64,000 nt of DNA from Roseateles sp. SL47 (GTDB lineage Bacteria > Pseudomonadota > Gammaproteobacteria > Burkholderiales > Burkholderiaceae_C). The notes under the pieces were generated by a model. The model was not told where the DNA came from. It saw nothing but the letters and a program-made list of their open reading frames with translations, and did no database searches. Shown piece by piece: positions 25,506-50,662 of the stretch. The translations under genes were made by a program, and so were the position numbers. Positions within the stretch are counted from its first letter, which is position 1. Each line of letters starts with the position of its first letter. The stretch covers positions 3,658,001 through 3,722,000 of the forward strand of contig NZ_CP113068.1 of assembly GCF_026625885.1 (NCBI RefSeq), written 5' to 3'.

Positions 25506-25678
25506 GGGCCTCCCGAAGTGCGCGGCGATTATCAGCGTGCCCCTGCCTGGGGCGTCCCGCAAAGCCGTCCATTCCACCCATCTTGGGGGCATGGCTGGGG
25601 TAGTGTTCCCCCGAATGGGGGCGGGTGCGGCCTGACAATCGCCGCTTTCGCGCCCGGGTGCGGTGCGAGGAGTCCGTC

Positions 25679-26785: not shown

Positions 26786-27912
26786 ATGATTCGACCGGCA
26801 CCCGCCCGTCCTCTTCCCCGCAGGACCCCCTGCTGATTGCCATCGTGCTGCCGCAGTTTCATCCGATTCCGGAAAACGACGCGTGGTGGGGCAAGGGCTT
26901 CACCGAGTGGCGCAATGTGGCCAAGGCCCGGCCGCTGTACAAAGGCCATCACCAGCCGCAACTGCCGGCCGATCTGGGGTTTTACGACCTCCGGCTCGCG
27001 CAGGCCCGGGCCGCACAGGCCGATCTGGCGCGGCAATATGGCATTGGTGGCTTCTGCTACTACCACTACTGGTTCCATGGGCGCCGCCTGCTGGAGCAAC
27101 CGGTGGAGGCCATTCGGGCCAGTGGCGAGCCGGATTTCCCCTACTGCCTGGCCTGGGCCAATGAGCCCTGGACCCGCGCCTGGAACGGTCTGGACCGTGA
27201 AGTGCTGATGGCTCAGCAGTACAGCGCCGAGGACGACGAGGCGCACATCCGCGCGCTGCTGCCGCATTTCCGGGACCCGCGCTACATCCGGGTGGCGGGT
27301 CGGCCGCTGTTCATCGTCTACAAGGCCGACCAGTTGCCGGACCCCCAGGCCACCTTCGGCCGCTGGCGCGAGATCGCCCGTCAGGAAGGGGTGGGCGAGC
27401 TGACGCTGGCGCAGTTCGAATGGAGCGGTGCGGGCTCCGGCAGCGACATCCGGCAGGTGGGCCTGGACCTGTCCATTGAATTTGCACCAGACTGGCGGCA
27501 ACTCGGCGGGCGGCATTTCACCGGCTGGAAGTCGCGTCTGGCGATGCAACTGGGGCTGCTGCCCAAGGCCTATGGGCAACATCAGTTTTATGACTATCAG
27601 CGCATGGTCGACAAGGTGCTGGCCAAGCCGACACCGTCGTATCCCTTCCTGCGCTGTGTCAGCCCCGGTTTTGACAACAGTGCCCGCCGTCCGCAGGGCG
27701 CCACCGTGCTGATGAACAACAGCCCGGCCGCCTACCAGCGCTGGCTGGAGTCCGCATTGCGCTGGACGCGGGACCATCAACCGCCAGACCGCCAGGTGGT
27801 GTTCATCAACGCCTGGAATGAATGGGCGGAAGGCAACCATCTGGAGCCCGACACCCGGGATGGGCATGCCTACCTGGCGGCCACCCTGGCGGCCCGACAA
27901 GCCAGTCGCTGA
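26782..27912 (+). CDS. WbsX-like (GH99-like) polysaccharide biosynthesis protein
   Basis: ATG 26782 overlaps the preceding stop. The 376-residue protein has the WbsX hallmarks: AIVLPQFHPIPENDAWWGKGFTEW (in pieces LPQFHPIPEND and GFTEWRNV), YGIGGFCYYHYWF, CLAWANEPWTRAWNG and INAWNEWAEGNHLEPD. The family is common in O-antigen and capsule loci and is related to GH99 endomannosidases or to glycosyltransferases; the reaction is not settled. It is cytoplasmic, with no signal peptide. It converges on the Kdo-transferase-like gene with 3 bp between stops. Confidence 0.88.
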   Translation: MNDSTGTRPSSSPQDPLLIAIVLPQFHPIPENDAWWGKGFTEWRNVAKARPLYKGHHQPQLPADLGFYDLRLAQARAAQADLARQYGIGGFCYYHYWFHGRRLLEQPVEAIRASGEPDFPYCLAWANEPWTRAWNGLDREVLMAQQYSAEDDEAHIRALLPHFRDPRYIRVAGRPLFIVYKADQLPDPQATFGRWREIARQEGVGELTLAQFEWSGAGSGSDIRQVGLDLSIEFAPDWRQLGGRHFTGWKSRLAMQLGLLPKAYGQHQFYDYQRMVDKVLAKPTPSYPFLRCVSPGFDNSARRPQGATVLMNNSPAAYQRWLESALRWTRDHQPPDRQVVFINAWNEWAEGNHLEPDTRDGHAYLAATLAARQASR

Positions 27913-27915
27913 CCG

Positions 27916-29316
27916 CTAAGGGCCGACCCAGGCCGCGCAAGCCTGCTGATGGCGCGCCACAGATCCACGCATGGATGCCAGCACTTCTTCGGTGCGGTGC
28001 AAGTCGTCCTGAATGGCCGGTGAGCCCGTCATCGCGGCGTGCCAGTAGGCCAGCAGCGATGCTTTGTCGGTGCAGGTGTGCAGCACGCCCTGGTCGCGCA
28101 GCAGCCGGTAGACCGGGTAGGAGGGATAGGTGGTGTTCCACCCGTCCTGGATGGTGAGCGGTTTGCCCAAGCCCAGCGGCTCCAGCACGTTGTGATCCAC
28201 ACCGACGTGAGCCACACTGGCGGCGGCATAAAAATCCCGCAACTCGCCGACGGTGTCCAGCACCAGGCAGTTCACCTCAGGCGCTAACGGCGCATCCGGC
28301 ACGGCGGAGCGGCGCACCCAGCGCAGCCCCCGGGCGTCTATCTGCGCCAGCAGGGCCTGCAGCCGCTCCTTGTTTTCAGGATGGCGGGGCGCCAGGATCA
28401 GCAGCGCCGTCGGATGCTGCGCCAGCAGCTGATGGAAGGCGCCCAGCACTGCCTGCTGCTCGTGCAGTTCGGTCACGCAGCCGCCCACCACCGTGGGTCG
28501 CTGACCGTCGATCAGGGCGCCCAGCAACACGGGGCTGCGCGCTTGCGACACCTGCCAGTGCGGCCGCTGCATCGCATCGAACTTCATGTTGCCGGTGACA
28601 TGGAGCCGGTCGCGGGGGGCGCCGCGCTCGGCCAGTGCGGCGGCGGTGGCTGGGTCCTGCACACACAGCACATCCAGCGCCTGCAGAAAATCGCGCTCCA
28701 GCAGGCGCCGCTCCATCTGGTCCAGCCGCGCCGGGGGGGCATAGTGATACAGCCAGCCATTGAGCAGCAAGGTGGCCGCGCCGCTGCGGCGTGCCTGGCG
28801 CAGGAAGGCATAAGAGAAGCGGCACGGCGCATCGGACGGCAGGCAGGGAATCTCCGCCAGGGCCAGCACCTGCGGCGGCAGTTGCTCGGCCAGTCGGCGG
28901 GCGTCGTGGCTGTGGCCTCGGCTCAGGCACACCACCGCACCCGGCAACCGGGCCAGATAGGCGTCTTGATAGTGCGCATGTTCGGTGATCAGCACCGGCC
29001 GCAGATCCGGCCGCTGGGCCACCAGCCATTCCAGCATCGGCGCCACCGCATTGAGTTCACCGATGGTGGTGATGTAGAGCCACAGCGCCGGGCCGCGCGC
29101 CTGCGGATCGGACAGCGAAAACACGCCCTGGGTGTTGTTGCCCCGCCAGTCGCTGAGTTGCTCCAGCGCGCGGAAGGCGGCCCACCGCAAAGCTTCGCCG
29201 GGGCCGGCGGATCGACCCGTGCGGCTCTGCCGGGGTTGGCCCGGCTGGGAGGGCGGGACCGGGGGTGAAGGGGGGGCAGGGCGGCCGGGCGCCTGGTCGG
29301 TGAGGGCTTCAGGCAT
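27916..29316 (-). CDS. Kdo-transferase-like (GT30-type) glycosyltransferase
   Basis: This 466-residue protein resembles WaaA/KdtA: TIGELNAVAPMLEWL at the N-terminal substrate site, LLLNGWLYHY, then DVLCVQDPATAAALAERGAPRDRLHVTGNMKFDA, VVGGCVTELHEQQAVLGAF and ILAPRHPEN, each in the family order. The usual N-terminal membrane anchor is replaced by a Pro-rich leader of about 40 residues. A true waaA gene is normally in the LPS core region, so this copy probably adds a Kdo-like ulosonic acid to the surface glycan made here. It is the last gene of the minus-strand operon and overlaps the flippase by 8 bp. Confidence 0.72.
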   Translation of the reverse strand: MPEALTDQAPGRPAPPSPPVPPSQPGQPRQSRTGRSAGPGEALRWAAFRALEQLSDWRGNNTQGVFSLSDPQARGPALWLYITTIGELNAVAPMLEWLVAQRPDLRPVLITEHAHYQDAYLARLPGAVVCLSRGHSHDARRLAEQLPPQVLALAEIPCLPSDAPCRFSYAFLRQARRSGAATLLLNGWLYHYAPPARLDQMERRLLERDFLQALDVLCVQDPATAAALAERGAPRDRLHVTGNMKFDAMQRPHWQVSQARSPVLLGALIDGQRPTVVGGCVTELHEQQAVLGAFHQLLAQHPTALLILAPRHPENKERLQALLAQIDARGLRWVRRSAVPDAPLAPEVNCLVLDTVGELRDFYAAASVAHVGVDHNVLEPLGLGKPLTIQDGWNTTYPSYPVYRLLRDQGVLHTCTDKASLLAYWHAAMTGSPAIQDDLHRTEEVLASMRGSVARHQQACAAWVGP

Positions 29317-30781
29317 GGCGACTCCGCAAATGGCTCAGCGCGCGGCGCACTTCACCCATCACCGGGTGATGCAGCCAATGGGCGCAGGCAATCCAGGACA
29401 GGGTGCCGGCGGCGATGCAGACCAGCAGGCGCGGCAGGAGCGGCAGCGACCATTCGGCGCAGGCCAGCTCGGCCAGCGCCAGGCCGGCACAGCAGCCCAG
29501 CGCCAGTTTGGCGCTCGCCCAGCTCGGCGCAAACAGCTCACGCGGACGGGCCTGCAGCACCGTGGTCAGATGGTGGGTGTAGAGCAGGGTCTGCACCAGA
29601 TTGCCAATGAGGAAGACGGCGGCAACCGCCTGGAGGCTCCAGAACGACGCCACCAGCACACATGCCAGATGCAGCGGGCCATACCAGAGGGCCACGGTGA
29701 GTCGTCGTTTGACGTTCCCGGTGGCGGCCAGCGCGTTGGGCGCCAGCACGGTCAGTGCATAGGGCAGGGCGGCGATGGCCAGCAAGGTGGCCAGCGGTGC
29801 CGCCTCCACCCACTGCGCGCCAAACAGCAGGGCCAGCACATCGTGCGACAACAGCGCAACACCCCCAAAAAACGGCCAGGCCACGCCGCTGTAGATGGCC
29901 GTGCCCTTGGCATAGGGGGCCACCAGGCTGTGTCCGGCGCGATGGTCGGCCGCAAAAGCGGGTGTCGCCACCCGCAGCACGGCCGAACTGACCGTGGTGG
30001 CCAGCAGGTCGATCAGCCCGGTCGCCCGGCTGAACAGGCCCAGCGAGGTGAACCCGAACTGCTTGCCGATGATCAGCTCATGCCCGTTGCGGGAGCCGGA
30101 TTCCACCAGCCGCGACGCCGTGAACATCGCGCCAAAGCGCAATTGCCGGCCTGCCCCGCGCAGACGGGGCCACAGCAGGGCCTCGCGCGGGCGCAGCCAC
30201 ACCAGGATCACCACCTGCATCGCAATGCCCGCCACCGGCCCCCAGGCCAGGCTGAGCGCACCATGGCCATGCCAGGCCAGGAAGATGCTGGTGGCGGCAT
30301 TGGCCAGGTTGGCACTGACCTGCACCACACAGACCGTGTGAAAGGCCATCTCCCGGTTGAGCAGTGCAAACGAGGGCGACGCCAGCGGCAGCATCACGAA
30401 GTTGAGGCACAGCACCAGCAGCAGGTCAGCCAGCAGGGGCTCGTGGTAATAACTCGCCAGCAGATGGCGCCCGAGGAAGATGATCAGGGCCAGGCCCCAC
30501 GCCATCATCAGCGTGATGGTGAAGGCGCTGCGCAGCTTGTCCCGGTCCAGTTCGCGCTCCTGGATGAGGTATTCGGACACGCCGAAGTCGCGCAAGATGG
30601 ACGCCAGATTGGTCACCACGGCGCAGAGCGAATACACGCCCACCTGCGTGGGTGTGAGCAGCCGCGCCAGGATCATCGTGCTGGGCACGGTGATCAGCAG
30701 GCTGAGATAGCGCTCGGCAAACGACCAGGCCAGGGCGCCACGGACGGACTTGGCAGCGTCGGAGGACTTGGGGGCGGTCAT
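29309..30781 (-). CDS. Oligosaccharide flippase (Wzx-type, MOP superfamily)
   Basis: ATG 30781 overlaps the stop of the upstream FemAB-like gene (ATGA); the frame reads further upstream only inside that gene. The 490-residue protein has about 12-14 hydrophobic segments, with the family start (SVRGALAWSFAERYLSLLITVPSTMILARLLTPTQVG) and internal RDFGVSEYLIQ. It should move the lipid-linked repeat unit across the inner membrane. No wzy polymerase is recognisable in the cluster, so the product could be a single-unit glycolipid, or the polymerase may be elsewhere. Confidence 0.9.
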   Translation of the reverse strand: MTAPKSSDAAKSVRGALAWSFAERYLSLLITVPSTMILARLLTPTQVGVYSLCAVVTNLASILRDFGVSEYLIQERELDRDKLRSAFTITLMMAWGLALIIFLGRHLLASYYHEPLLADLLLVLCLNFVMLPLASPSFALLNREMAFHTVCVVQVSANLANAATSIFLAWHGHGALSLAWGPVAGIAMQVVILVWLRPREALLWPRLRGAGRQLRFGAMFTASRLVESGSRNGHELIIGKQFGFTSLGLFSRATGLIDLLATTVSSAVLRVATPAFAADHRAGHSLVAPYAKGTAIYSGVAWPFFGGVALLSHDVLALLFGAQWVEAAPLATLLAIAALPYALTVLAPNALAATGNVKRRLTVALWYGPLHLACVLVASFWSLQAVAAVFLIGNLVQTLLYTHHLTTVLQARPRELFAPSWASAKLALGCCAGLALAELACAEWSLPLLPRLLVCIAAGTLSWIACAHWLHHPVMGEVRRALSHLRSRHA

Positions 30782-31872
30782 GAAGTGGACGCCTCCGCCA
30801 CCGGGGGCGCCGTGGCTTCCAGGGCGGGGGCTGGGGCGCCCTGCCGACGAGCCAGCGCCCGGTGCAGCGATTGAATCCATCCCCAGCGGTAGCGGGTGCC
30901 GTGGTAGATCTGGCGGGTGTGGGCCGTCCAGCGGGTGTGCCACTCCATCACCTTGCCGTAGAACTCGATCCGCCGGAGGGCCCCACCGGCGGCTGCGTCG
31001 GCGAAGAGTTGTTCAAACTGCTGCTGGCGCATCAGCGTGGAGGGGGACACCGCCTTGTGCGCTTCGTCATAGGCGGTCTTCAGGATCACGATGCGGTCGC
31101 CGCAGAGGATGCACAGGTCCATGGCCACCACCTCGTCGTTGAAGCGATATTGATAGAGCCGGGCGCGCCCCTGCCGGCAGAAGTTCTGCAGCATCGCGAG
31201 GTAGAAGGCGTATTGGGGATGTCCCGGTGCGATGGCCGTGCCTTCGTTGCCCTTCCAGCCACTGGCCTCCAGGCGGCCGTAGTGGGCCAGCGCCGGCGCC
31301 ACGTCCTCCACCGTGGTCAGGCATTCCAGGCGCGCCTGGATGCCGGAGGTCTCCAGCTTCTTCTGCTGCTTGCGCAGGTTCTGGCGCAGGTTCTTGCCGC
31401 GCGCTTCCCAATAGGCGTCGAATGGGCCGTCGATGTCGACCCACGCGGTGTTGATGTAGTCCTGGCTGCGCCAGTGTGATGTGTCGGCCGGCCGGGGGTG
31501 AAACAGGCTGTCGAGCTGGGTGATGCCCACGGCCAGCGCCAGGGGCGGCAGGGCCCGCGTCAGGTCGGCGGCCAGGGGTTCCAGCGCGGCCCCCGGTGCG
31601 CTCAGCCAGGCACCCAGGGGGAGCTGGGAGGGTTGGAAGGTGGTCCATTGCCCGCGGCGGCCTTTGACCAGAATCGCAGCGGCCGTGGGCGCCTGCACCG
31701 GCCCGTGCAGTGCCAGCAGCTCACGGCCACTGCCAAAGGCGGCCAGCAGAGGCTGGATGAAGCCGCTCTCCAGGAAGGGCAGGCCCGTCACACGGGCCTG
31801 CAGGGTGTCCCAGGCGGCGGCATGCGCACCGAAGGCTTCGGCGGTGGGCAGGGGATGAATCGTCCAGGTCAT
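30778..31872 (-). CDS. FemAB/GNAT-type aminoacyl or acyl transferase
   Basis: This 364-residue protein has the BioF2-like/FemAB C-terminal GNAT domain: RGKNLRQNLRKQQKKLE (about 157-173), GRLEASGWKGNEGTAI and QYRFNDEVVAMDLCI, followed by KTAYDEAHKAVSPSTLM. Such proteins accompany exosortase-type polysaccharide loci and are thought to attach an acyl or amino-acid group to a sugar amine. Both ends overlap neighbours by four bases, so it is translated within the operon. The C-terminal tail is Ala/Pro-rich. Confidence 0.82.
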   Translation of the reverse strand: MTWTIHPLPTAEAFGAHAAAWDTLQARVTGLPFLESGFIQPLLAAFGSGRELLALHGPVQAPTAAAILVKGRRGQWTTFQPSQLPLGAWLSAPGAALEPLAADLTRALPPLALAVGITQLDSLFHPRPADTSHWRSQDYINTAWVDIDGPFDAYWEARGKNLRQNLRKQQKKLETSGIQARLECLTTVEDVAPALAHYGRLEASGWKGNEGTAIAPGHPQYAFYLAMLQNFCRQGRARLYQYRFNDEVVAMDLCILCGDRIVILKTAYDEAHKAVSPSTLMRQQQFEQLFADAAAGGALRRIEFYGKVMEWHTRWTAHTRQIYHGTRYRWGWIQSLHRALARRQGAPAPALEATAPPVAEASTS

Positions 31873-33215
31873 GGGCGGGCTCGCTCAATGTGGGGTGGGG
31901 GCTGCTCGATCGGCTGGCCCAGCCGTGCCTCGTCCAGCACCTGCGCCAGCTCGGTGGTGCGGGCGCGGCGGGAGGATTGGCGGATCACGGATTCGTCCGG
32001 CAGCAAGGGGTGAGGCTGGGCCCAGTCGTCCAGGAAACGGTGCAGCGCCGCTTCAATGGCGACGCCATCCTCCAGCGCCGCCATGTCGGGCAGGCCGGCG
32101 CGGCGCATCAACTGGGCGGTGTCGCCCGCCGGGTCCGCCAGGGTCAGGATGGGACGGCGGGCGCGCAGGTATTCATAGGCCTTGGCTGGGATCTGGTCAT
32201 TGCAGTCGCGCGACTGCAGCAGCAACAGGCCATCGGCGCGCAGCATCTCCGCGAGTGCGTCGACATACGGCAGCGCTGGAAGCACCTGCACCAGATCTGC
32301 CACGCCGTGCTGCTGCGCGAGTTGGCGCACAAAGTCGTCATGGGCGGTGGCCCGCAGGCGCAACTGGAAGCTGGCCGCGGACAGTCGGCCTGCGGCCTTG
32401 GCACGCGCCAGCGCCTGGAAGAGCCCGGCAGGGCTGCGCCAATCGGGATAGACCACGCCGCTGTGCAGCAACACACGAGGGCCGGCAGTGGCGGCGCTTG
32501 TTGTGCTCAGGCGTGCATCGACGAAGTCGCCGCGCATCGGCGGCTGTTCCTGCCCGGATGGGTGTGCCGGCGCCTGCGCTGCGGCAAATGCCTCTTCGCT
32601 GTAGCCGTTTTCGATCACCCGCAGGCGGTCGGCACAGGCCGGGTATCTCGCCGCATACAGGCGGGCGGCCCCCGGCGTGGTGAAGGTCATGCGCCGCGCG
32701 CGGCTGAAGACCTGGCGCTCGACCGCTGCAAAGCTGCGCCACAGCACCGGATCGGCCGGGTAGCCGTCATGGGCCATGGGGTCACGGAAGTCCGCCACCC
32801 ACGGGATGCCGGTGAGCCGCGCCAAGGCATGGCCGATGCGATGGGCGGTCGGAATGGGATAGGTGCTCCAGAGCACGTCCGGCCGCTGCTGGCGGATCAT
32901 GGCCAGCCCGGCGGGCACGGCACCCAGCATCCAGCTGTTCCAGCGGTCCGGCCGCGCCATCCAGCCGGGATAACGTCCCGCCAGGGACAGATGCCGGGCC
33001 GCATCCAGCCCAAAAGCCTGGCGCACCGTCATGCCGGACGGCACTTCCTCCAGCAGATCGCTCGCAGCATGCTCATAGGCGCGCGGATGCACGGTCAGCA
33101 CGCTGGGCCACCAGCCTTCTTCCGGCAACTGCTGGGCAAAGCGCAGGGCCCGTTGCACGCCGCTGGTCCCCGCCATCGGCGGGAACTGGAAGCTGATCAT
33201 CAGCACACGTTTCAT
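31869..33215 (-). CDS. Glycosyltransferase, GT4-like
   Basis: I chose ATG 33215 (MKRVLMISFQFPPMAGTSGVQR), a classical start for this group; the frame upstream overlaps the aminotransferase gene. The 448 residues form a GT-B fold with VADFRDPMAHDGYP, then VIENGYSEEAFAAA and a C-terminal PAKAYEYLRARRPILTLADP, the UDP-sugar end. It has no membrane segment. The gene lies 16 bp after the aminotransferase and overlaps the FemAB-like gene by four bases. Confidence 0.85.
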   Translation of the reverse strand: MKRVLMISFQFPPMAGTSGVQRALRFAQQLPEEGWWPSVLTVHPRAYEHAASDLLEEVPSGMTVRQAFGLDAARHLSLAGRYPGWMARPDRWNSWMLGAVPAGLAMIRQQRPDVLWSTYPIPTAHRIGHALARLTGIPWVADFRDPMAHDGYPADPVLWRSFAAVERQVFSRARRMTFTTPGAARLYAARYPACADRLRVIENGYSEEAFAAAQAPAHPSGQEQPPMRGDFVDARLSTTSAATAGPRVLLHSGVVYPDWRSPAGLFQALARAKAAGRLSAASFQLRLRATAHDDFVRQLAQQHGVADLVQVLPALPYVDALAEMLRADGLLLLQSRDCNDQIPAKAYEYLRARRPILTLADPAGDTAQLMRRAGLPDMAALEDGVAIEAALHRFLDDWAQPHPLLPDESVIRQSSRRARTTELAQVLDEARLGQPIEQPPPHIERARP

Positions 33216-33231
33216 GGCGAGGGCGGGGCGC

Positions 33232-34409
33232 TCATGGGCCAAACAGGCGACGCACCTGCACCACGATGGTTTCCATCTCCTGCTCGCTGAGGTCCTGGTG
33301 ACAGGCCAGTTGCAGCACATGGTGAGACCAGTCCACGCCCATGTCGCCATCCAGCTGCGGCACGCCGGGCCAAAGCCGGTCCCAGCGCGACACGGGGACG
33401 CCGAGACGGCGCATCTCCAAATAGCCCGGGTCCGGCGTGCGGACCCAGAGCGGGAAGACATACGGCGCGCTGTCGGCGGGCAGGCGTGGCATGAGCGGAT
33501 GGAAGCCCTGGCTGCCGCGCAGGGCCTGCAACAGATGCTCGTAGTGGCGACGCCGGGCCTGGACGATGCGTTGACGGGGTACGCCGGTCGCCACCCAGGC
33601 ACTGGCACGGGTCAGTGCCCGATGGGAGAGGGGCAGGTCGATCAGCCCCATGTTGGCATCGAGTGCGTCCTCGGCGGGGGCCCCTGCGGACGCAGTGTCC
33701 GTGGACGGCGCCGATGAGCGCCGCATCAGGCCGCGCAGGGCAAAAGCACCGCGGATCAGCCCGTTCAGGCCGGTCAGCCGGTCATGGCTGGCCCCCATAT
33801 GCAGGATGTCGGCAGCGGCCTTGACCTGCTGGAGGGGAGGCACGGGTGTCAGCGCGGGCAGTTGCAGGTCCGGCCGGTTCAGCGCCAGGATGCCGCCTTC
33901 CGGCGCGGGGAAGAATTTGGTGAGGCTGGCAATCGCGACGTCGCCCCAGCCGCCCACCGGCCGCGTGCCGCTGCGGCCGAACATGGCATGGGCACAGTCC
34001 TCGATCAATGCAATGCCGTGGGCATCACACCAGGCGCGGTTGGCTTCCATCGGCTGCGGAAGGCCGAAGTAATGCGTGGCCAGCATGGCCTTGGCGCGGC
34101 GGGGTGCGTGGGCGTCCAGCCAGTCCAGCTGTGGTGCGCCGTGGGCATCGATGGGATAGAACACCGCCTGCGCCCCCAGCGTCAGCACTGGCGCCACCAT
34201 CGTGGGGCAGTGGTAGGTGGGGAGCAGCACCACATCGTCCGGCCCGACGCCGACACATTCCAGCGCCAGCAGGATGGCCGCCCGGCCACTGGTGCTGAGC
34301 TGATGGCGTGGGTGATCCAGCAGGCTCGGCAGCGCAGCGTCGCGCCCACCACGGAAGGTCTGCCAGCCCATGACGGGCAGGCGAGGGGCCAGCGGGGAGG
34401 CAGGGCTGC

Positions 34410-34413
<4 letters not shown>
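33232..34413 (-). CDS. DegT/DnrJ/EryC1-family PLP aminotransferase
   Basis: ATG 34413 overlaps the stop of the TPR gene (ATGA). The 393-residue protein is a sugar aminotransferase-type enzyme: VLLPTYHCPT (63-71), ATHYFGLPQPM, LIEDCAHAMFG (136-146; the Asp holds the PLP ring N) and SLTKFFPAPEGG with the Schiff-base lysine K166. It would add an amine to a keto-sugar, or modify a small amine precursor. The amine could be the acceptor for the FemAB-like transferase encoded two genes downstream. Residues 240-265 are a low-complexity insertion. Confidence 0.85.
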
Positions 34414-35210
<797 letters not shown>

Positions 35211-35222
35211 GCAAATCTCCAT

Positions 35223-36401
35223 TCAGTCCGCCGCCGAGGCGGGCAGGGGGCACTGGGCGTCAGCGGCCGGCTGGGACGCATGCGACGCGTGCGTCGCCTT
35301 GGTCATTGGGGCCGATGAGGTGGATGAGGCGGATGATGCGGATGAGGCCGGTGCCCGGCCTTGGCCACCTGCGGCCACAGAAACGGCAAAGGACAAGGTC
35401 CAGGACTCCACCTGAGCCCGCCACGCGGCGCTGGCAAAGGTGTGATCCGCTTCGGGCAGGTCTTCCCGGCGCAGGAGGGGGCGCTCCAGCAGGCCCTGCC
35501 AGGCGGGGCCTCCGGTGCGGCAGCGGTCCAGGAACTCCTTGGCCACCAGATCGTCGCCAGAGAGCATCAGCAGGATGGGGCCTTGAAACTCGCGCAGGCC
35601 AAGCGCCATGCGCTCGATGTAGTGCAGGGGGCGGTCCGTTCGACTGGGGGGCGATGCGCTGCGCGTCTGGCTGATCTTGCCCAGCAGTTCACGCACCGCC
35701 GACAAGCCAACGCCGCCACTGAGCAGCTTGCGCCAGAACGACCCCTGGCGCAGGCGGTCCCAGTAGTAGTGCCGCACCTGCGCGCGCGCCAGGCTCTCGG
35801 TGGTGCGCACCCAGGGGTTGGCCAGGCACAGGCCGGCGACGCGGGGATCCTGGCGGCGCTGCACATACAGCAGCGCAGCGGAGGCCGCATCACACAGCCC
35901 CCAGATCAGCACCCGCCGCAGGGCCGGGCGTTCCTGCTGCCATTGGTCGATGGCGGCTGAAATGTCGTCATCAATCTGCTCGAAGTCGCGGGCCTCCCCG
36001 GTGGCGTCGCCCATGCCGCGATAGTCGATGCGCAGGCAGGGAATGCCGCCGGTGGCCAGCGCACGGCCCAGCAGGGTGAACTGGCGGTGGCAGCCCACCC
36101 GGTATTGGGGGCCGCCCACGATCAGCAGCACCCCCAGGTCTTCCGACATCACGCATGGGTGGGGGTTCGGCGCCTGATCAGGCGCCGGGGCCTGCGGGTG
36201 TTGCGGCCGCTCGGTGGTGGACCGGAGCGTGGCAGATGCAACGGCGGGTTCGGTCAGGATGGCCAGGAGGTGCTCGCCCTGGCAGGCGACCGTCAGCACG
36301 GAATCGCGATAGCTGCTGCGGCAGCTGTTCGGATCGCTTATGGGATCGCTCATGGGATCGCTCATGGGATCGCTCGCGGGACCGCGCGTCAGATCCTTCA
36401 T
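35223..36401 (-). CDS. Alpha/beta hydrolase, exosortase-A-associated type 1
   Basis: This 392-residue protein matches the hydrolase-1 family of exosortase-A loci: LIVGGPQYRVGCHRQFTLLGRAL, then LRIDYRGMGDA and the nucleophile elbow WGLCDAASA, where the central position is Cys rather than Ser. The acid LSGDDLVAKEF and the His in LPEADHTF complete the triad. The start at 36401 overlaps the hydrolase-2 stop (ATGA), but the first 25 residues are a 4-residue repeat (SDPM) with further in-frame ATGs, so the start may vary. The C-terminal 45 residues are Ala/Ser-rich. It probably cleaves a thioester or ester in the ACP-linked pathway. Confidence 0.85.
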   Translation of the reverse strand: MKDLTRGPASDPMSDPMSDPISDPNSCRSSYRDSVLTVACQGEHLLAILTEPAVASATLRSTTERPQHPQAPAPDQAPNPHPCVMSEDLGVLLIVGGPQYRVGCHRQFTLLGRALATGGIPCLRIDYRGMGDATGEARDFEQIDDDISAAIDQWQQERPALRRVLIWGLCDAASAALLYVQRRQDPRVAGLCLANPWVRTTESLARAQVRHYYWDRLRQGSFWRKLLSGGVGLSAVRELLGKISQTRSASPPSRTDRPLHYIERMALGLREFQGPILLMLSGDDLVAKEFLDRCRTGGPAWQGLLERPLLRREDLPEADHTFASAAWRAQVESWTLSFAVSVAAGGQGRAPASSASSASSTSSAPMTKATHASHASQPAADAQCPLPASAAD

Positions 36402-37285
36402 ACGGTGGCTCCCCCAGCACTCTGCCGCGCCGTGGCTGGCGGCTTCGATGCGTTCAGCAGGGCCTGGACACTGGCGTCGATCAAGGCCGGTGCCACTTCG
36501 ATTTCAGTCGCCGCCCAGAAGGAAGGGCCCTTCACCGCTGCGGCCTGCACGTGACAGCCGGCCGCTTGCCAGGCCGGAACGGCATGGGCGCCTGCGGGAG
36601 ACAAGGCGGGCTCGTCGCGCAGGCTGGTCTCCAGCCAGATGACGTCGGCATAGCGGCTGTCGGGCTTGAGCTGCGCCTGTTCCAGCCCTCGGGCGAGGGC
36701 GGGCGACAGCGCATAACCGGCCACCTCCACCGGCTGGTCCTGCTCCAACTGCGCGCGCAGGGCCTGCATCTGCCCCTTGGCCTGGCCACCGACCAGATCG
36801 GCCGCCAGCTTCAGCCGCAGGAACTGCTGCAGTTGCAGCTTGCCTGCCGCCACGGGTTGCCACAGCATCAGATTCAATGGGCGCAGCGGGTGCGCCGCCA
36901 GCGCCGGGGCCAGCAGGGCGCCCGAACGCACGCCCCAGAGCCACAAGGGCAGGGCAGCGGTGGTGGGCCCACTGTGCATCGCACCCAGCCAGTCCGCCGC
37001 CAGGCGCATGTCGGCCTGCCAGTCCTCCCAGCCCGCGTCGCCAAAGTCCCCGCTGCTGTCGCCACAGCCCAGCAGGTCCATCATCAGCACCTCAAAGCCA
37101 GCGGCCGCAAAGGCCCGGCTGGTCAGCGCCAGCATCCGGCGGGATTTGTTCAGTTCCTCGGTGAAGGGCGGCAGCAGCAGCACCTGCCCCAGGGGCGTGT
37201 GGACGCCCTGCGCGGCATGGAAGACGCACAGTCGCTGGCCGCGTGGGCCGGCATCCAGGAAGAAGCTGCGGCACGCGGCGGTCAT
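36398..37285 (-). CDS. Alpha/beta hydrolase, exosortase-A-associated type 2
   Basis: This 295-residue protein matches the second hydrolase family of exosortase-A loci: LLPPFTEELNKSRRMLAL near the N-terminus, MMDLLGCGDSSGDFG and LWLWGVRSGALLA, where the elbow reads GVRSG (the family lacks the strict GxSxG). It is cytoplasmic. It follows the ACP gene by 18 bp and overlaps hydrolase 1 by four bases. The two hydrolases always occur together with the AMP ligase and decarboxylase families; the substrate is not known. Confidence 0.85.
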   Translation of the reverse strand: MTAACRSFFLDAGPRGQRLCVFHAAQGVHTPLGQVLLLPPFTEELNKSRRMLALTSRAFAAAGFEVLMMDLLGCGDSSGDFGDAGWEDWQADMRLAADWLGAMHSGPTTAALPLWLWGVRSGALLAPALAAHPLRPLNLMLWQPVAAGKLQLQQFLRLKLAADLVGGQAKGQMQALRAQLEQDQPVEVAGYALSPALARGLEQAQLKPDSRYADVIWLETSLRDEPALSPAGAHAVPAWQAAGCHVQAAAVKGPSFWAATEIEVAPALIDASVQALLNASKPPATARQSAGGATV

Positions 37286-37303
37286 GGCCGGTCTGGGCGC
37301 CGC

Positions 37304-37555
37304 TCAGGCGGCCAACTTGCCGTTCAGGAAATCCGTCAGCGCACCCACCGTGGCGAAGGTGGAACCATCGATTTCGTCATCGTCCACAACGATGCCGAAC
37401 TGTTCCTCCAGTGCGGTGATCAGGCTGACAACGGCCATGGAGTCCAGCTCCGGAAGGGCGCCCAGCAGGGCCGTATCCGGGGTGAAGGACTTGGCGCGTC
37501 CCTCCAGGCTCAGGACGTCGTCCAGAATGTCCAGCAGATGTTCTTGTGTGTTCAT
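37304..37555 (-). CDS. Acyl carrier protein
   Basis: ATG 37555 gives an 83-residue protein; the frame runs on upstream without a start signal. The phosphopantetheine site is ELDSMAVV with S39, and the helix pattern and acidic character are typical of ACP/PCP. It is the first gene of the minus-strand operon, divergent from the AMP ligase at 37677, with about 120 bp between them holding both promoters. It should carry the acyl or aminoacyl group activated by the ligase. Confidence 0.92.
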   Translation of the reverse strand: MNTQEHLLDILDDVLSLEGRAKSFTPDTALLGALPELDSMAVVSLITALEEQFGIVVDDDEIDGSTFATVGALTDFLNGKLAA

Positions 37556-37676
37556 GTCGGCTGGAATCTTAACCGTCGGCCCCTTCACACACGCCCGCCA
37601 AACGCCCCCCCATCCCAAGGGGAGGCCCCCAGGAGCGTGCAGTCGTTCCGGGAGCGTGCATGAGATACTTTTTTCC

Positions 37677-39359
37677 ATGCCTGCCCTCGACAGCCACCTG
37701 CTCCCGCACCTCATCCGGTCCAGCGCCGACCGCAACCCCGCAGCCCCCGCGCTGCGGGACGGTGCCCGCCTGTTGAACTACGGTGATTTGGCCACCCAGG
37801 TCGAGGCGCTGGCCCATGGGCTGCTGTCGCTGGGCCTGGGGCGTGCGGAGCGGGTGGGCATCTACCTGGACAAGCGGATCGAAACCGTGGTGGCCAGCTT
37901 TGCCGCGCCGGCCGCCGGGGCGGTGTTTGTGCCCATCAACCCCATCCTGAAGGCCGAGCAGGTCGGTTTCATCGTCCGGGACTGCGACGTGCGGGTGCTG
38001 ATCACCTCGCGGGAGCGGCTGGCAGCCTTGCAGCCGATGCTGGCGCAATGCCCGTCGCTGCGGCATGTGGTGCTGGTGGACCCACCGGCAGAGGTCAGTG
38101 GGGGGACAGGCGCGGGCAAGGGTGCGGCGACTGGTGCGGCGACTGGTGCGGCCCCTGGCGATGGGGCGGCACCCTTCCCCTGGCTGCGTTATTCGGACCT
38201 GCTGGAGGCCCCCGCCCGCGCCGGCCATCGTGTCATCGACACCGACATGGTGGCCATTCTCTACACCTCCGGCTCCACCGGGCGGCCCAAGGGGGTGGTG
38301 CTGTCCCACCGCAACATGGTGGCTGGGGCCCGCAGTGTGGCCAGCTACCTGGGCAACCATGCGCAGGACCGTCTGCTGGCCGCGCTGCCCTTGTCCTTTG
38401 ATGCCGGTTTCAGCCAGCTGACCACCGCCTTCCATAGTGGCGCGTCGGTCACGCTGCTCAACTACCTGATGCCGCGCGACGTGCTCAAGGCGCTGGAGCG
38501 CGACCAGATCACCGGCCTGACGGCCGTGCCGCCGCTCTACATCCAGTTGGCGCAGCTGGAATGGCCTGCCGCCGTCCAGCAGCATCTGCGCTATTTCGCC
38601 AATACCGGTGGCCGCATGCCGCGCGAGACGCTGGGCCTGCTGCGCCAGCGGGTGCCGTCCGCCCAGCCCTTCCTGATGTACGGTTTGACTGAAGCGTTCC
38701 GCTCCACCTACCTGCCGCCGGAGGAGGTGGACCGCCGCCCCGATTCCATCGGCAAGGCCATTCCCAACGTGGAAATCCTGGTGCTGCGCGAAGACGGCAG
38801 CCCCTGTGCGACGGATGAGCCCGGAGAACTGGTCCATCGCGGGCCGCTGGTCGGCCTGGGCTACTGGAACGATGCGGACAAGACCGCCGAGCGCTACAAG
38901 CTGCTGCCGGCCGGTACCGCCGGCCGCGAAGCCGGCCTGCAGCTGCCGGAATACGCCGTGTTCTCCGGCGACACCGTGCGTATGGATGCCGAGGGCTTTC
39001 TCTACTTCATCGGCCGTCGGGACGAGATGATCAAGACCTCGGGCTACCGCGTCAGCCCGACCGAGGTGGAAGAAATCCTCTACGCCACCCAACTGGTGGG
39101 CGAATGCGTGGCCTTTGGTGTGGACCACCCCACGCTGGGCCAGGCCATTCAAGTGATTGCCACCCCGGCGCCCGGTGCCGGCGTACTGGACACCGCCGCC
39201 GTGCTGGTGGCGTGCCGCGCACGCATGCCGGCCTACATGATCCCTGCCGGGGTGTTGGCCCGTAGTGGCCCGCTGCCCCGCAACCCCAATGGCAAGATTG
39301 ATCGCAAGCTGCTCAGCACCGAGTGGATCGCGGCACTGGAATCCGATGCAAAGTCCTGA
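37677..39359 (+). CDS. AMP-forming acyl-CoA/ACP ligase, exosortase-A-associated
   Basis: ATG 37677 (MPALDSHLLPHLIRSSADRN) is the family start; the open frame reaching 36777 upstream is antisense to other genes and is rejected. The 560-residue protein is an ANL enzyme: the P-loop LYTSGSTGRPKGVV, motif GLTEAF, then FSGDTVRMDAEGF and the hinge RRDEMIKTSGYRVSP, with the C-terminal catalytic Lys in NPNGKIDR. Residues 140-165 are a Gly/Ala-rich insertion (GAATGAATGAA). It would activate a carboxylic acid, probably an amino acid, for transfer to the ACP encoded divergently. Confidence 0.92.
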   Translation: MPALDSHLLPHLIRSSADRNPAAPALRDGARLLNYGDLATQVEALAHGLLSLGLGRAERVGIYLDKRIETVVASFAAPAAGAVFVPINPILKAEQVGFIVRDCDVRVLITSRERLAALQPMLAQCPSLRHVVLVDPPAEVSGGTGAGKGAATGAATGAAPGDGAAPFPWLRYSDLLEAPARAGHRVIDTDMVAILYTSGSTGRPKGVVLSHRNMVAGARSVASYLGNHAQDRLLAALPLSFDAGFSQLTTAFHSGASVTLLNYLMPRDVLKALERDQITGLTAVPPLYIQLAQLEWPAAVQQHLRYFANTGGRMPRETLGLLRQRVPSAQPFLMYGLTEAFRSTYLPPEEVDRRPDSIGKAIPNVEILVLREDGSPCATDEPGELVHRGPLVGLGYWNDADKTAERYKLLPAGTAGREAGLQLPEYAVFSGDTVRMDAEGFLYFIGRRDEMIKTSGYRVSPTEVEEILYATQLVGECVAFGVDHPTLGQAIQVIATPAPGAGVLDTAAVLVACRARMPAYMIPAGVLARSGPLPRNPNGKIDRKLLSTEWIAALESDAKS

Positions 39360-40602
39360 GACCCCGGCCGGCAAGGTGCCGCCGCAGCATGCGCCCCTGG
39401 AGCAGTTTCCGGTGGTGGACGGCCAGTTGCAGGTCGGCGGCCAACCCCTGTCGCGGCTGGCCGATCGCGTGGGCCGCACGCCGTTTTATGCCTATGGCCG
39501 TCACCAGTTGACGGCGCGGGTGCAGGCGCTGCGGGCGGCGCTGCCGGCCGGCATCGAGCTGCATTACGCCATGAAGGCCAATCCGATGCCGGTGCTGGTG
39601 GCGCACATGGCGGGCCTGGTGGACGGCATCGACGTGGCCTCGGGCGGTGAACTGCAGGTGGCGCTGGATGCGGGCGCGGACCCCCGCGAGATCAGCTTCG
39701 CCGGGCCGGGAAAAAGTGAACCCGAGCTGCGGCAGGCGCTGGCCGCTGGCATCCTGATCAACATCGAATCCTTCCGCGAGGTGGATCTGCTGGCGCGGCT
39801 GAGCGAGGGGACGGGTTATGCCGCCCGCGTGGCCGTGCGCGTGAATCCGGACTTTGAGCTGAAGTCCTCCGGCATGAAGATGGGGGGCGGGCCCAAGCAA
39901 TTTGGGGTGGATGCGGAGCAGGTGCCCCAACTGCTGCAGTTGATCGCGGCGGCCGGCCTGGGCTTTGAAGGTTTCCATCTTTTTGCCGGCTCCCAGAACC
40001 TCAAGCCGGACGCCATCATCGAGGCCCAGCAAAAGAGCTTTGAGCTGGCGCTTCGTCTGGCCGAATCGGCCCCCGCTCCGGTGCGGGTGCTCAACCTGGG
40101 CGGCGGCTTCGGCATTCCGTATTTCCCTGGCGAGCAACGGCTGGACCTGGCGCCCATAGCCGCCAACCTGGCCGCCCTCCAGGCGCGGGCCGCGCAGGAG
40201 ATGCCCGGCGCCAGGTTGGTGATCGAGTTGGGGCGCTACCTGGTGGGTGAGGCCGGTGTGTATGTCTGCCGCGTGGTGGACCGCAAGGTCTCGCGGGGAC
40301 AGGTCTATCTGGTCACCGACGGTGGGTTGCATCACCATCTGGCCGCTTCCGGCAACTTCGGCCAGGTCATCCGCAAGAACTACCCGGTGGCCATCGGCAA
40401 CCGCATGGGCGGTGAGCCGGAGCCCGGGGTGTCGGTGGTGGGGCCGTTGTGCACGCCGCTGGACCTGCTGGGCGAGCGCATGGCCCTGCCGCATGCCGAG
40501 CCCGGTGATCTGGTGGTGGTGTTCCAGTCCGGTGCCTACGGTGTCAGCGCCAGCCCGCAGAACTTTCTGAGCCATCCGCCCGCTGCCGAGGTGCTGGTGT
40601 GA
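39346..40602 (+). CDS. PLP-dependent decarboxylase, exosortase-A-associated
   Basis: ATG 39346 overlaps the ligase stop by 14 bases. The 418-residue protein is a fold-III decarboxylase of the LysA/ornithine decarboxylase group: HYAMKANP with PLP lysine K77, the phosphate-binding GGGFGIPY (about 257-264), then ELGRYLVGEAG and CTPLDLL with the catalytic Cys. A DAP or ornithine-like amino acid is the likely substrate; the product would be a diamine or amine. The coupling to the ligase suggests it acts on the carrier-bound or released amino acid. Confidence 0.9.
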   Translation: MQSPETPAGKVPPQHAPLEQFPVVDGQLQVGGQPLSRLADRVGRTPFYAYGRHQLTARVQALRAALPAGIELHYAMKANPMPVLVAHMAGLVDGIDVASGGELQVALDAGADPREISFAGPGKSEPELRQALAAGILINIESFREVDLLARLSEGTGYAARVAVRVNPDFELKSSGMKMGGGPKQFGVDAEQVPQLLQLIAAAGLGFEGFHLFAGSQNLKPDAIIEAQQKSFELALRLAESAPAPVRVLNLGGGFGIPYFPGEQRLDLAPIAANLAALQARAAQEMPGARLVIELGRYLVGEAGVYVCRVVDRKVSRGQVYLVTDGGLHHHLAASGNFGQVIRKNYPVAIGNRMGGEPEPGVSVVGPLCTPLDLLGERMALPHAEPGDLVVVFQSGAYGVSASPQNFLSHPPAAEVLV

Positions 40603-40615
40603 CGCGGCTGCGCCT

Positions 40616-41653
40616 ATGAGCAGCCACGGACCCCGGCTGGCTCAGCTGGACGCGCTGCGCGGCCTGGCGGCACTGCTGGTGGTGGGCTTCCACTACACCA
40701 CGCGGTTCGATCAGCTCTACGGACACCCCACGGCGCCGCTGGTGTCGCTGCCGTGGGGCCATTACGGGGTCAACCTGTTCTTTATGATCAGCGGCTTCGT
40801 CATCTTCATGAGCCTGGAACGCACCCGCCGGCCGATGGACTTCCTGGTGTCGCGGTTCAGCCGGCTGTATCCGGCCTACTGGGGCGCATTGCTGTTGACC
40901 TTCGCGCTGACGCATCTGCTGGGCCTGCCCGGCAAGACGGTGGGGTGGACCACGCTGCTGGTGAATGTGACCATGCTGCAGGAGCTGGTGGGGGTGCCGC
41001 ATGTGGACGGGGTCTACTGGACCTTGACCGTCGAACTGCTGTTTTATGCGTGGGCGCTGCTGAGCTGGCTGCAAGGCGGTGGCCAGCGTCTGTGGCAGTT
41101 GCTGTGGCTCTTCCTGGCCGTGCGCGTGGTGTATGTGCTGGTCGCCGCGTTCGGCTCGGTCGACCTGCCCTGGTTGCTGCAGCGCTGGCTGCTGCTGCCC
41201 TACATCGCCTGGTTTGCGCTGGGCGTTGCGGTGTACCGACTGACGCAACAAGACGCCGTGCCTGCACCCCCTGCACGTCTGGCCTTGGCGGCGGTGGCCG
41301 TGATCGCCTTGGCGAAGGGCATTGGCGTCGGCCTGCTGGCCGTGGGCTGCTTTGTGCTGCTGCGCGGCGCCGCCCAGGGCCGATGGCGCTGGCTGGAGCA
41401 TCCGATGTGGTTGTGGCTGGGCAGCATCTCCTACACGCTCTACCTGCTGCACGAAAACATCGGCTGGGCCCTGCTGCTGCGTCTGGAAGCCCTGGGCCTG
41501 CCGCCGACGGTGGCCATCCTGGTGGTGCTGGCCGTGTCACTGGGGCTCGCCCATGGATTGACCCGGTGGGTGGAGCAGCCGGCGATGCGCTGGATTCGCA
41601 GCCGTTATCAACAGTATCGGCTGCGGCATGCGGCCGTCGTGAGCGGTGGCTGA
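40616..41653 (+). CDS. Acyltransferase 3 (OafA/YrhL-type O-acyltransferase)
   Basis: This integral membrane protein of 345 residues has about ten hydrophobic segments. The family N-terminal motif LDALRGLAALLVVGFHY contains the essential His, and SGFVIFMSLERTRRP with SRLYPAYW follow. It would acetylate or succinylate the glycan on the periplasmic side. The start is an ATG 13 bp after the decarboxylase stop. It is followed directly by an SGNH esterase-like gene. Confidence 0.9.
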   Translation: MSSHGPRLAQLDALRGLAALLVVGFHYTTRFDQLYGHPTAPLVSLPWGHYGVNLFFMISGFVIFMSLERTRRPMDFLVSRFSRLYPAYWGALLLTFALTHLLGLPGKTVGWTTLLVNVTMLQELVGVPHVDGVYWTLTVELLFYAWALLSWLQGGGQRLWQLLWLFLAVRVVYVLVAAFGSVDLPWLLQRWLLLPYIAWFALGVAVYRLTQQDAVPAPPARLALAAVAVIALAKGIGVGLLAVGCFVLLRGAAQGRWRWLEHPMWLWLGSISYTLYLLHENIGWALLLRLEALGLPPTVAILVVLAVSLGLAHGLTRWVEQPAMRWIRSRYQQYRLRHAAVVSGG

Positions 41654-41665
41654 GCGCGCTGCGGG

Positions 41666-42577
41666 TTGGGGGCGGCCCCCTGGTGGGCGGCGGCCACGGC
41701 CGCACTGCTGACGCTGAGCGGTGGCGCGGCCGCATTGAAATTCTGGGCGGATGACCGCCGCACCGATCAATCCCTCGCCGCACGTGTGGCGACGATTCAG
41801 GACATTCCGGCGGACAGCCGCAGTTGTGACACCTGGCTGGCCGGTCGCATGCCGCTGGTGCTGGTGGCCATGGGCCAATCCAATGCCGGCAACCATGGGG
41901 ATCTGCCCGCTCAACCGGCCGGCACCCAGGCCAAGCCGATCCCGGTGCTGCATCAGGGCCGTTGCGTGCTGGCCCAGGACCCTTTGCCGGGGGCGACCGG
42001 GCAAGGGGCGAGTGTTTGGTCCGCCCTGCACCAGCGCCTGGGCGGCCAATGGAATGGGCGGCCGATTGTCTGGATGGTGGTGGCGGTGGACGGGACGCGG
42101 CTGGACGACTGGACGGACGATCAGAGCCCGTTGCGCCGCTGGTGGGAGCGGCAGATCGATGCCACGGTGGCCACCGGCTGGCCCATTGCCGCTGTGTTGT
42201 GGCAGCAGGGGGAGGCCGATGCTCGGCAGGGCACCAGCACCGAGGACTACATGCACGGCCTGCGCCAGCTTCGCGCGCTGACCGAAGCGCATGGCCTGCC
42301 GGGCCCCTGGTGGTTGGCCCGGTCCACGTATTGCCCGCCCGTCGCCACGGACCCGATGCGCAAGGCCGTGCGGCAGGCGGTGGAGGACCTGTTGGAGGAG
42401 CCCACCAGCGGCTTTCGCGCCGGGCCGGATACCGACGCCTTGCCCCGCACCATGAGAAACGGCTGCCACTTCACCGCCGAAGGCGTCGAAGCAGCAGCCG
42501 CGTTGTGGCAACAGGCGCTGGTGGGTCAGCGCCCAGGGCCGTCATCGGCCCCTTCGGGCATCAGCCCTCGATCTTGA
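41666..42577 (+). CDS. SGNH/sialate-O-acetylesterase-like protein
   Basis: The frame is open from the acyltransferase stop; the best start is TTG 41666, giving a 303-residue protein with an N-terminal hydrophobic segment (AAATAALLTLSGGAAALKF), so it should be exported or membrane-anchored. The SASA hallmarks are VAMGQSNAGNHG (nucleophile Ser in GQSN), AVLWQQGEAD and the C-terminal CHFTAEGVEAAA with the catalytic His. It probably removes or trims acetyl groups added by the upstream enzyme. It ends with a 17-bp convergent overlap with the PAP2 gene. Confidence 0.78.
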   Translation: MGAAPWWAAATAALLTLSGGAAALKFWADDRRTDQSLAARVATIQDIPADSRSCDTWLAGRMPLVLVAMGQSNAGNHGDLPAQPAGTQAKPIPVLHQGRCVLAQDPLPGATGQGASVWSALHQRLGGQWNGRPIVWMVVAVDGTRLDDWTDDQSPLRRWWERQIDATVATGWPIAAVLWQQGEADARQGTSTEDYMHGLRQLRALTEAHGLPGPWWLARSTYCPPVATDPMRKAVRQAVEDLLEEPTSGFRAGPDTDALPRTMRNGCHFTAEGVEAAAALWQQALVGQRPGPSSAPSGISPRS

Positions 42578-46921: not shown

Positions 46922-46933
46922 GTGTGCCTTCCC

Positions 46934-48199: not shown

Positions 48200-48201
48200 G
48201 A

Positions 48202-48558
48202 ATGGCTAAGAACCTTGTTGCCCGACAGCAGGTCGGATGGAAGGTGATCTGCACGCGTCCCGACGTTTGCAAAACGCCCATGGGGTCCAGCACGCCACCG
48301 GTCCCTTACCCCGTTTACTCGGAACTGATGTCATCGGCGGACGTCGCCAAATCCGTCCGGAGCAATGGCCATCCGCTGGTGATCCTGGACGATAGCTATA
48401 CCGCCTCGACGATCGGCGATGCAGCGGGAGCCGCCAAAGGTGTTAGTAGCAGCACGGTGGCAGGGAAGTGCTACCCGGCCAAAGCGAGCGGTACGGTCAG
48501 GGCACAAAAGCATTGGCTGGTGCGTCATGGCGACGAATTCGAAATGAACGCTCCTTAA
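48202..48558 (+). CDS. Stand-alone DUF4150 PAAR-like protein
   Basis: This 118-residue protein contains a whole DUF4150 domain and nothing else: RPDVCKTPMG (19-28), PVPYPVYSELMSSAD and the end VRHGDEFEMNAP. It follows the DUF2169 gene by two bases and precedes the toxin by three. In the first module the same domain is fused to its nuclease; here tip and toxin are separate chains, so the toxin must bind the tip non-covalently. Confidence 0.88.
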   Translation: MAKNLVARQQVGWKVICTRPDVCKTPMGSSTPPVPYPVYSELMSSADVAKSVRSNGHPLVILDDSYTASTIGDAAGAAKGVSSSTVAGKCYPAKASGTVRAQKHWLVRHGDEFEMNAP

Positions 48559-48561
48559 TGT

Positions 48562-49626: not shown

Positions 49627-49649
49627 ATTGCTTAGGGGAATGTTTCGAT

Positions 49650-50660: not shown

Positions 50661-50662
50661 TC

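Follow-up and report, generated by a model that had tools for sequence, protein, structure and literature searches.

An exosortase A-type gene set in Roseateles sp. SL47 is probably one half of a split XrtA/PEP-CTERM exopolysaccharide locus

Exopolysaccharide (EPS) loci of the XrtA/PEP-CTERM kind have an accessory set of a ligase, a decarboxylase and two hydrolases (TIGR03098 to TIGR03101), which NCBIfam names only as "exosortase A system-associated". The NCBI notes for TIGR03098 and TIGR03099 reportedly do not commit to a substrate and offer, as a guess, that a linker for exosortase action is made. Here we analyzed such a set, joined by a carrier protein, in Roseateles sp. SL47. The window, which is the whole stretch of 64,000 nucleotides under analysis, corresponds to G000:C1:3658001-3722000 of a genome that is a single contig of 6.39 Mb. 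A sequence-only reading of the window had described a glycan locus without an exosortase. Our results indicate that the set is probably the relocated half of an XrtA/PEP-CTERM EPS locus, with a carrier route of the VinN/BtrK type that would add a beta-alanyl-like group to the EPS.

Related chemistry is described for natural products. In butirosin biosynthesis, BtrK decarboxylates an L-glutamyl-carrier, and the BtrK/BtrI system has a stand-alone carrier, as does the window. The butirosin ligase BtrJ is an ATP-grasp enzyme and not an adenylation enzyme, in which it differs from the window ligase. The VinN-VinL-VinO system of vicenistatin shares with the window a stand-alone carrier, a pyridoxal phosphate (PLP) decarboxylase and a ligase pocket of Asp, Ser/Thr and Arg, whereas the window has sugar genes in place of polyketide synthases. 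In VinN, Asp230 and Ser299/Arg331 are reported to bind the amino and carboxyl groups of 3-methylaspartate (PMC7756342). For AFC-BC11 of the Burkholderia cepacia complex, it is reported that AfcQ, a VinN-type ligase with the same Arg, loads L-Asp on AfcK in vitro, and that AfcP decarboxylates the AfcK-bound L-Asp to beta-Ala, also in vitro (PMC12186527). The product in that case is a lipopeptide, not a polysaccharide.

The set in the window and the XrtA genes of the genome

All four diagnostic proteins exceed the curated cut-offs of their XrtA-family NCBIfam models. Hydrolase 1 (positions 35223..36401 of the window, minus strand), an alpha/beta-hydrolase with Cys at the nucleophile place, scored 295.6 bits against TIGR03100 (cut-off 168.45). 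Hydrolase 2 (36398..37285, minus strand) has the alpha/beta-hydrolase fold with Arg at the nucleophile place and scored 273.9 bits against TIGR03101 (cut-off 202.75). The carrier-protein ligase, of the VinN/AfcQ kind (37677..39359, plus strand), scored 757.7 bits against TIGR03098 (cut-off 592.35); its open reading frame (ORF) spans 36777-39359, with 37677 as the likely start. The PLP decarboxylase, of the BtrK kind (39376..40602, plus strand), scored 639 bits against TIGR03099 (cut-off 478.45), in an ORF from 39265 whose start is uncertain. Among them lies a stand-alone acyl carrier protein (37304..37555, minus strand; PF00550, 30.3 bits) with the serine of its DSM motif. Because the four diagnostic proteins are far above the curated cut-offs, a chance resemblance of the set is excluded, and the five-protein set named in the sequence-only reading was confirmed.

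The genome has two exosortases, and both map outside the window. XrtA is encoded at 5402643-5403416 (TIGR03109, about 339-342.1 bits, cut-off 208), in a block at 5.39-5.41 Mb that is 1.7 Mb from the window set. Over their cut-offs in the same block are the pepcterm ATPase, chain-length protein, export protein, tyrosine autokinase, TIGR03088 glycosyltransferase, TIGR03108 amidotransferase and TIGR03097 O-ligase (polymerase-like). The TIGR03019 FemAB protein of the genome (516.9 bits, at 5404724) is encoded beside xrtA, and a polysaccharide deacetylase gene lies within the block as well. PEP-CTERM models gave 17 matches over cut-off in the genome. The XrtA/PEP-CTERM EPS system is therefore whole by sequence and gene content. 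The sequence-only reading had rightly noted xrtA as absent from the window and had suggested searching the genome for xrtA and PEP-CTERM proteins; that search found both, and the idea of a glycan system without an exosortase did not survive it. The set looks odd without an exosortase because the XrtA locus is split, and the impression of none arose because the window covers only the displaced half. The second exosortase (L006, G000:C1:2495-2497 kb) scored 125.9 bits; all 16 genomes sampled from the genus carry two over-cut-off exosortase matches.

In a survey of 60 genomes, that of SL47 included, the decarboxylase was found in 24 at an expectation value (E) of <= 1e-100. In 11 of these (G002, G004-G008, G019, G022, G026, G028 and G055), the ligase and XrtA genes share a contig, with starts separated by 24-41 kb; in three (G000, which is SL47, G015 and G050) they share a contig but lie far apart. 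In nine they are on separate contigs, which fits a joined as well as a split state, and the remaining one, G036, has no exosortase match. In G006, the complete window block of 16 genes, with order and strand unchanged, comes after xrtA, the O-ligase gene and the deacetylase gene. The XrtA-system genes are thus in the SL47 genome, and the two halves are one locus in relatives. The sequence-only reading had taken neighbouring xrtA, export and polymerase genes in relatives, together with an identical known polymer, as grounds to abandon it; such genes do adjoin the set in relatives, and no identical known polymer was found.

Genes for a riboflavin synthase, ArsC and an arginyltransferase flank the window block in all five genomes examined (G000, G001, G003, G012 and G015); no match to this flank was found in the 60 kb examined of G006. 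Across the family of the window organism (16 genomes of the genus and 20 others), the decarboxylase and an over-cut-off exosortase occur in the same 20 of 36 genomes. The XrtA/PEP-CTERM EPS systems of other species have the set contiguous with the xrtA core, whereas no such physical link exists in SL47. We regard gene position as a movable trait and did not take it as defining membership of an XrtA system; the matches to the four models, the carrier and the XrtA, export, chain-length, amidotransferase, O-ligase and FemAB genes are all in the genome. In G050 (L077, G050:C1), about 1.9 Mb separates the ligase gene from the rest of the set (decarboxylase, hydrolases and carrier), so a split within the cassette is also possible.

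Ligase, carrier and decarboxylase

Compared with solved structures, the best single-domain match of the ligase is VinN (185.8 bits). Ranked higher are six multi-domain peptide synthetases, each of which matched in two stretches, and with the middle part of the ligase as query VinN came first (134.5 bits). VinN Asp230, Ser299 and Arg331 align to Asp, Thr and Arg of the window ligase, and all three agree with the chain numbering after a single offset of 16. From the fetched loci we retained 58 distinct ligases, near relatives among them, with scores of >= 500 bits and lengths of >= 450 residues. All 58 keep the trio Asp, Ser/Thr and Arg, with Thr in 28 and Ser in 30. As controls, 20 AMP (adenosine monophosphate) ligases were hand-picked from the below-cut-off rows of the ligase search; only one has the trio, and it carries the VinN motif TECKR. 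The DSM serine of the carrier is present in 40 of 40. L181 (G020:C1:317483-319006) is a ligase under the TIGR03098 cut-off with the VinN motif TECKR, and its genome has no decarboxylase at E 1e-100.

A Burkholderia arboris cluster shows afc hallmarks among the 10 proteins scanned: an AMP ligase, a carrier, KAS III and citrate synthase. Its ligase is 51% identical to the window ligase and has the 192-residue Arg-to-Lys spacing of AfcQ. It is a probable AfcQ orthologue, and AfcQ is probably orthologous to the window ligase. In a ligase tree made by a quick method, with 20 of 57 forks weak, the B. arboris ligase, whose very long branch makes its placement unsure, joins the other Burkholderia and the rhizobial ligases; next to this group are 22 ligases, the window's among them, from genomes with XrtA.

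The nearest solved structure to the decarboxylase is BtrK (270.8 bits), which ranks over every diaminopimelate and ornithine decarboxylase in the list; the best diaminopimelate decarboxylase reached 164 bits. The protein also matched the diaminopimelate decarboxylase model TIGR01048 at 257.9 bits, under the cut-off of 297.9. A reading as diaminopimelate or lysine decarboxylase is set back by the rank of BtrK. A Burkholderia cenocepacia cluster (L090, 8329-19584) has a ligase and a decarboxylase 52% and 56% identical to those of the window, closer than the B. arboris pair. It also encodes a LuxR-type regulator and proteins resembling acyl-CoA dehydrogenase and KAS III, and is perhaps a cluster for a dehydro-beta-alanine natural product.

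Homology thus supports two steps proposed in the sequence-only reading: loading of the carrier with an amino acid by the ligase, and amine formation by the decarboxylase, which would take place on the carrier. The predicted product is an omega-aminoacyl thioester on the carrier rather than a free amine. A vicenistatin-type macrolactam starter cassette would also have a second aminoacyl ligase of the VinM type. None was found among the scanned genes of the window block, which include one AMP-binding gene only.

Hydrolases, distribution of the cassette and neighbouring genes

For the hydrolases we kept rows of >= 250 bits (hydrolase 1) or >= 200 bits (hydrolase 2) and >= 200 residues. Hydrolase 1 has Cys at the nucleophile position in 25 of 25 and a conserved His in 25 of 25, and hydrolase 2 has Arg at the nucleophile position in 35 of 35. 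Structure models gave alpha/beta-hydrolases at predicted local distance difference test (pLDDT) values of 80 and 91, respectively. Fold searches with both returned the general esterase/lipase fold and no specific function. These features suggest that hydrolase 1 is an acyl-transferring enzyme and hydrolase 2 an inactive partner, and in our view hydrolase 1 is a better transferase candidate than the GNAT/FemAB-like protein of the block, which the sequence-only reading had proposed for the attachment.

In a class sample of 369 genomes, the decarboxylase was found at E <= 1e-100 in 43 (37 over cut-off), XrtA over cut-off in 73 and both in 28 (Fisher p 2.7e-12, kinship ignored). Sixteen decarboxylase genomes lack XrtA (15 and G036; some assemblies are incomplete). 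No exosortase match at E <= 0.001 was found in 11 of these; the remaining five have another exosortase-like match, which is over the general cut-off in three. Where XrtA and the decarboxylase co-occur, 26 of 28 genomes have hydrolase 1 over cut-off (the exceptions being G360 and G420). It was over cut-off in 3 of 16 with decarboxylase only (G103, G163 and G256) and in none of 36 with XrtA only (36 of 45 covered; G198 and G365 gave weak sub-cut-off matches). The p values of this distribution are 9e-7 and 6e-16, with kinship ignored.

On Sinorhizobium meliloti pSymB and Aureimonas pAU20a, the genes for ligase, decarboxylase and carrier are surrounded by glycosyltransferase, O-antigen ligase and polysaccharide deacetylase genes, and no exosortase match was found on these two replicons. 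We read the cassette as a sugar-locus module of its own, which the hydrolases tie to the XrtA system. The protein before the ligase in both loci has no Pfam match. A transferase shared by the exosortase-free loci was considered, and the Sinorhizobium pre-ligase protein has no significant match to the window GNAT protein. ORF clustering around 47 decarboxylase loci recovered the decarboxylase, the ligase and the hydrolases; apart from these, some loci had sugar genes and others housekeeping genes, with no partner gene common to all. Zoogloea and Thauera records (L095, L099) contain the ligase, decarboxylase, carrier and both hydrolases, and Accumulibacter records (L096, L103) at least the ligase and decarboxylase.

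The sugar-coat block of the window spans 23790-42577, from an asparagine-synthase-like gene to the end of an esterase gene. The asparagine-synthase-like amidotransferase (23790..25592, minus strand) matches PF00733 at 247.9 bits and TIGR03108 at 239 bits, under the cut-off of 816.9; the gene adjoins the set also in G001, G003, G006, G012, G015 and G028. It is followed by a weakly matched GT1-like glycosyltransferase (25625..26785, plus strand; PF13524, 20.9 bits, under the cut-off of 25), a WbsX glycosyltransferase (26749..27912, plus strand; PF14307, 448.8 bits) and a KdtA-like glycosyltransferase (27916..29316, minus strand; PF04413, 51 bits), whose matches to five lipid A Kdo-transferase equivalog models are far under cut-off. 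On the minus strand are also a MOP flippase (Wzx-like) at 29309..30943 (PF13440, 208 bits; true start probably internal), the GNAT/FemAB-like acyltransferase at 30778..31872 (PF13480, Acetyltransf_6, 74.8 bits), a GT4 glycosyltransferase at 31869..33218 (PF13439, 38.8 bits; ORF to 33608, start by eye) and a DegT-like aminotransferase at 33232..34419 (PF01041, 87.9 bits; ORF to 34830, start by eye), which matches positions 46-191 of the 360 of the model only. Between the latter and hydrolase 1 is a 270-residue protein without assigned role (34410..35222, minus strand). It appears exported by eye and has a homologue adjoining hydrolase 1 in six relatives; neither Pfam nor NCBIfam gave a match at E 0.001. 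Downstream of the decarboxylase, a membrane acyltransferase (Acyl_transf_3; 40616..41653; PF01757, 96.6 bits) and a SASA-type carbohydrate esterase (41666..42577; PF03629, 41.2 bits) are encoded on the plus strand.

The companions listed in the sequence-only reading are mostly upheld by these matches: the flippase, the KdtA-like protein and, in part, the DegT-like protein agree with Pfam, and the WbsX protein is present just to the left of the interval 27916..42577 in which it had been placed. The "FemAB-like" transferase is an acyltransferase by PF13480, but it had no match at E 0.001 to TIGR03019, the FemAB model of XrtA loci.

To the right of the block, one ORF of 671 residues (42561-44576) fuses a PAP2 phosphatase domain to an autotransporter-type repeat. 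Between the PAP2 and GH94 genes is a type VI secretion island (44804-50669) with VgrG, a DUF2169 protein, a PAAR-like protein and a lower third-position GC (guanine plus cytosine) content. Two of its proteins (48562-49626, plus strand, and 49761-50669, minus strand) have no Pfam match and could be an effector with an immunity or helper protein. VgrG had no match in the fetched stretches of G001, G003, G006, G012 and G015. A protein of 2977 residues with GH94 and glucoamylase domains (52319-61252), which we take to be cyclic-glucan-synthase-like, has a homologue that flanks the joined locus in G006.

Proposed route and alternatives

Judging from homology and active-site residues, the substrate of the ligase would be L-aspartate or a close amino-dicarboxylate, which it would activate at the side-chain carboxylate and load on the stand-alone carrier. 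The BtrK-like decarboxylase would then take off the alpha-carboxylate to give beta-alanyl-S-carrier, or a gamma-aminobutyryl-like group if the substrate is glutamate. Hydrolase 1, with its Cys-His pair, and the nucleophile-less hydrolase 2 might move the aminoacyl group from the carrier to an acceptor on the EPS. The outcome would be an EPS bearing short primary-amine side groups. In favour of this route, a polysaccharide deacetylase is encoded in the xrtA block of SL47 and is also annotated in the Sinorhizobium and Aureimonas loci.

Several points weigh against it. The acceptor considered most likely, an amino sugar that the xrtA-block deacetylase would free, is a guess. The decarboxylase is only 30% identical to the probable AfcP relative of B. 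arboris, which weakens Asp as the exact substrate, and BtrK itself acts on glutamate, so Asp is not the fixed choice. Hydrolase 1 may be a thioesterase or have an unrelated activity, and 13 of the 16 XrtA-less decarboxylase genomes have no hydrolase 1 match, so that transfer there would need other means. XrtA does not require the cassette, as the decarboxylase is missing at E 1e-100 from 45 of the 73 genomes with XrtA. In the ligase tree, the joined G002, G004-G006 and G008 nest inside a group that is otherwise split or on different contigs, and the outer G007, G022, G026 and G028 are joined. Split and joined species therefore do not form separate clades, and the number of moves is not fixed. 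No biochemistry of a TIGR03098 or TIGR03099 protein in an EPS setting was found in the literature.

The reading as an exosortase-free locus is rejected in view of the XrtA block of the genome and the joined loci in relatives. Could the set still be a self-standing, exosortase-independent glycan locus that merely resembles XrtA sets? Ligase, carrier and decarboxylase are indeed found without a nearby exosortase, as in the 11 of 16 XrtA-less genomes without an exosortase match at E 0.001 and in the sugar loci of pSymB and the Aureimonas plasmid. However, the presence of XrtA with 17 PEP-CTERM matches in SL47, the ligase at <= 41 kb from xrtA in G006 and 10 more genomes, the co-occurrence in 20 of 36 family genomes, and the inclusion of hydrolase 1, the XrtA-tied part, in the window set make this very unlikely. 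It is just as improbable that the two enzymes use lysine or diaminopimelate to give a free polyamine-like or cadaverine-type linker, with the carrier incidental. The TIGR01048 match would fit such a route, but BtrK outranks the diaminopimelate and ornithine decarboxylases, and the invariant carrier serine (40/40) and VinN pocket (58/58) point to a carrier-bound substrate.

By the same carrier chemistry, the aminoacyl group might instead end up on a small molecule or a lipid produced in parallel with the EPS. The related Burkholderia ligase serves a lipopeptide, and L089 and L090 look like natural-product clusters; the sugar-gene neighbours (glycosyltransferases, flippase or translocase, O-antigen ligase and deacetylase) in the window, G006, Sinorhizobium and Aureimonas argue for a polysaccharide, and we consider this ending unlikely. 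A further idea, which we hold to be quite unlikely, is that the beta-alanyl-type amine on the EPS is the acceptor to which XrtA covalently joins PEP-CTERM proteins, with hydrolases 1 and 2 forming the bridge. Such a bridge would explain why hydrolase 1 is nearly confined to genomes with XrtA and the cassette, and XrtA would gain a sortase-like amine acceptor. A parallel is the ethanolamine lipid proposed as amine acceptor for archaeosortase in one report (PMC7157517). The idea is weakened by the 45 XrtA genomes without the decarboxylase, which would need another acceptor. These alternatives overlap in likelihood, and their odds and that of the relocated EPS half are not intended to add up to one.

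A link between exosortase sets and VinN/BtrK chemistry was not found in the titles or abstract openings of the open-licence papers listed, so novelty is unproven. Where searched, the open-licence literature has no co-mention of exosortase with butirosin or with vicenistatin, no use of the phrases "exosortase A system-associated" or "exosortase A-associated", and nothing on-topic for beta-alanine on amino sugars of O-antigen or polysaccharide. The available part of Haft 2006 (PMC1569441) does not mention a ligase, decarboxylase, hydrolase, acyl carrier, FemAB or amine.

Reading the set as a displaced XrtA half with VinN/BtrK-type chemistry turns the carrier chemistry from a guess into a residue-level prediction that can be tested cheaply. 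It also shows that a locus which is unusual in one window can be an ordinary locus that has been split. The cassette offers a candidate for the acceptor of exosortases, and under this reading a specific chemical group is expected in the EPS of bacteria that form flocs and biofilms, such as Zoogloea, Thauera and Accumulibacter.

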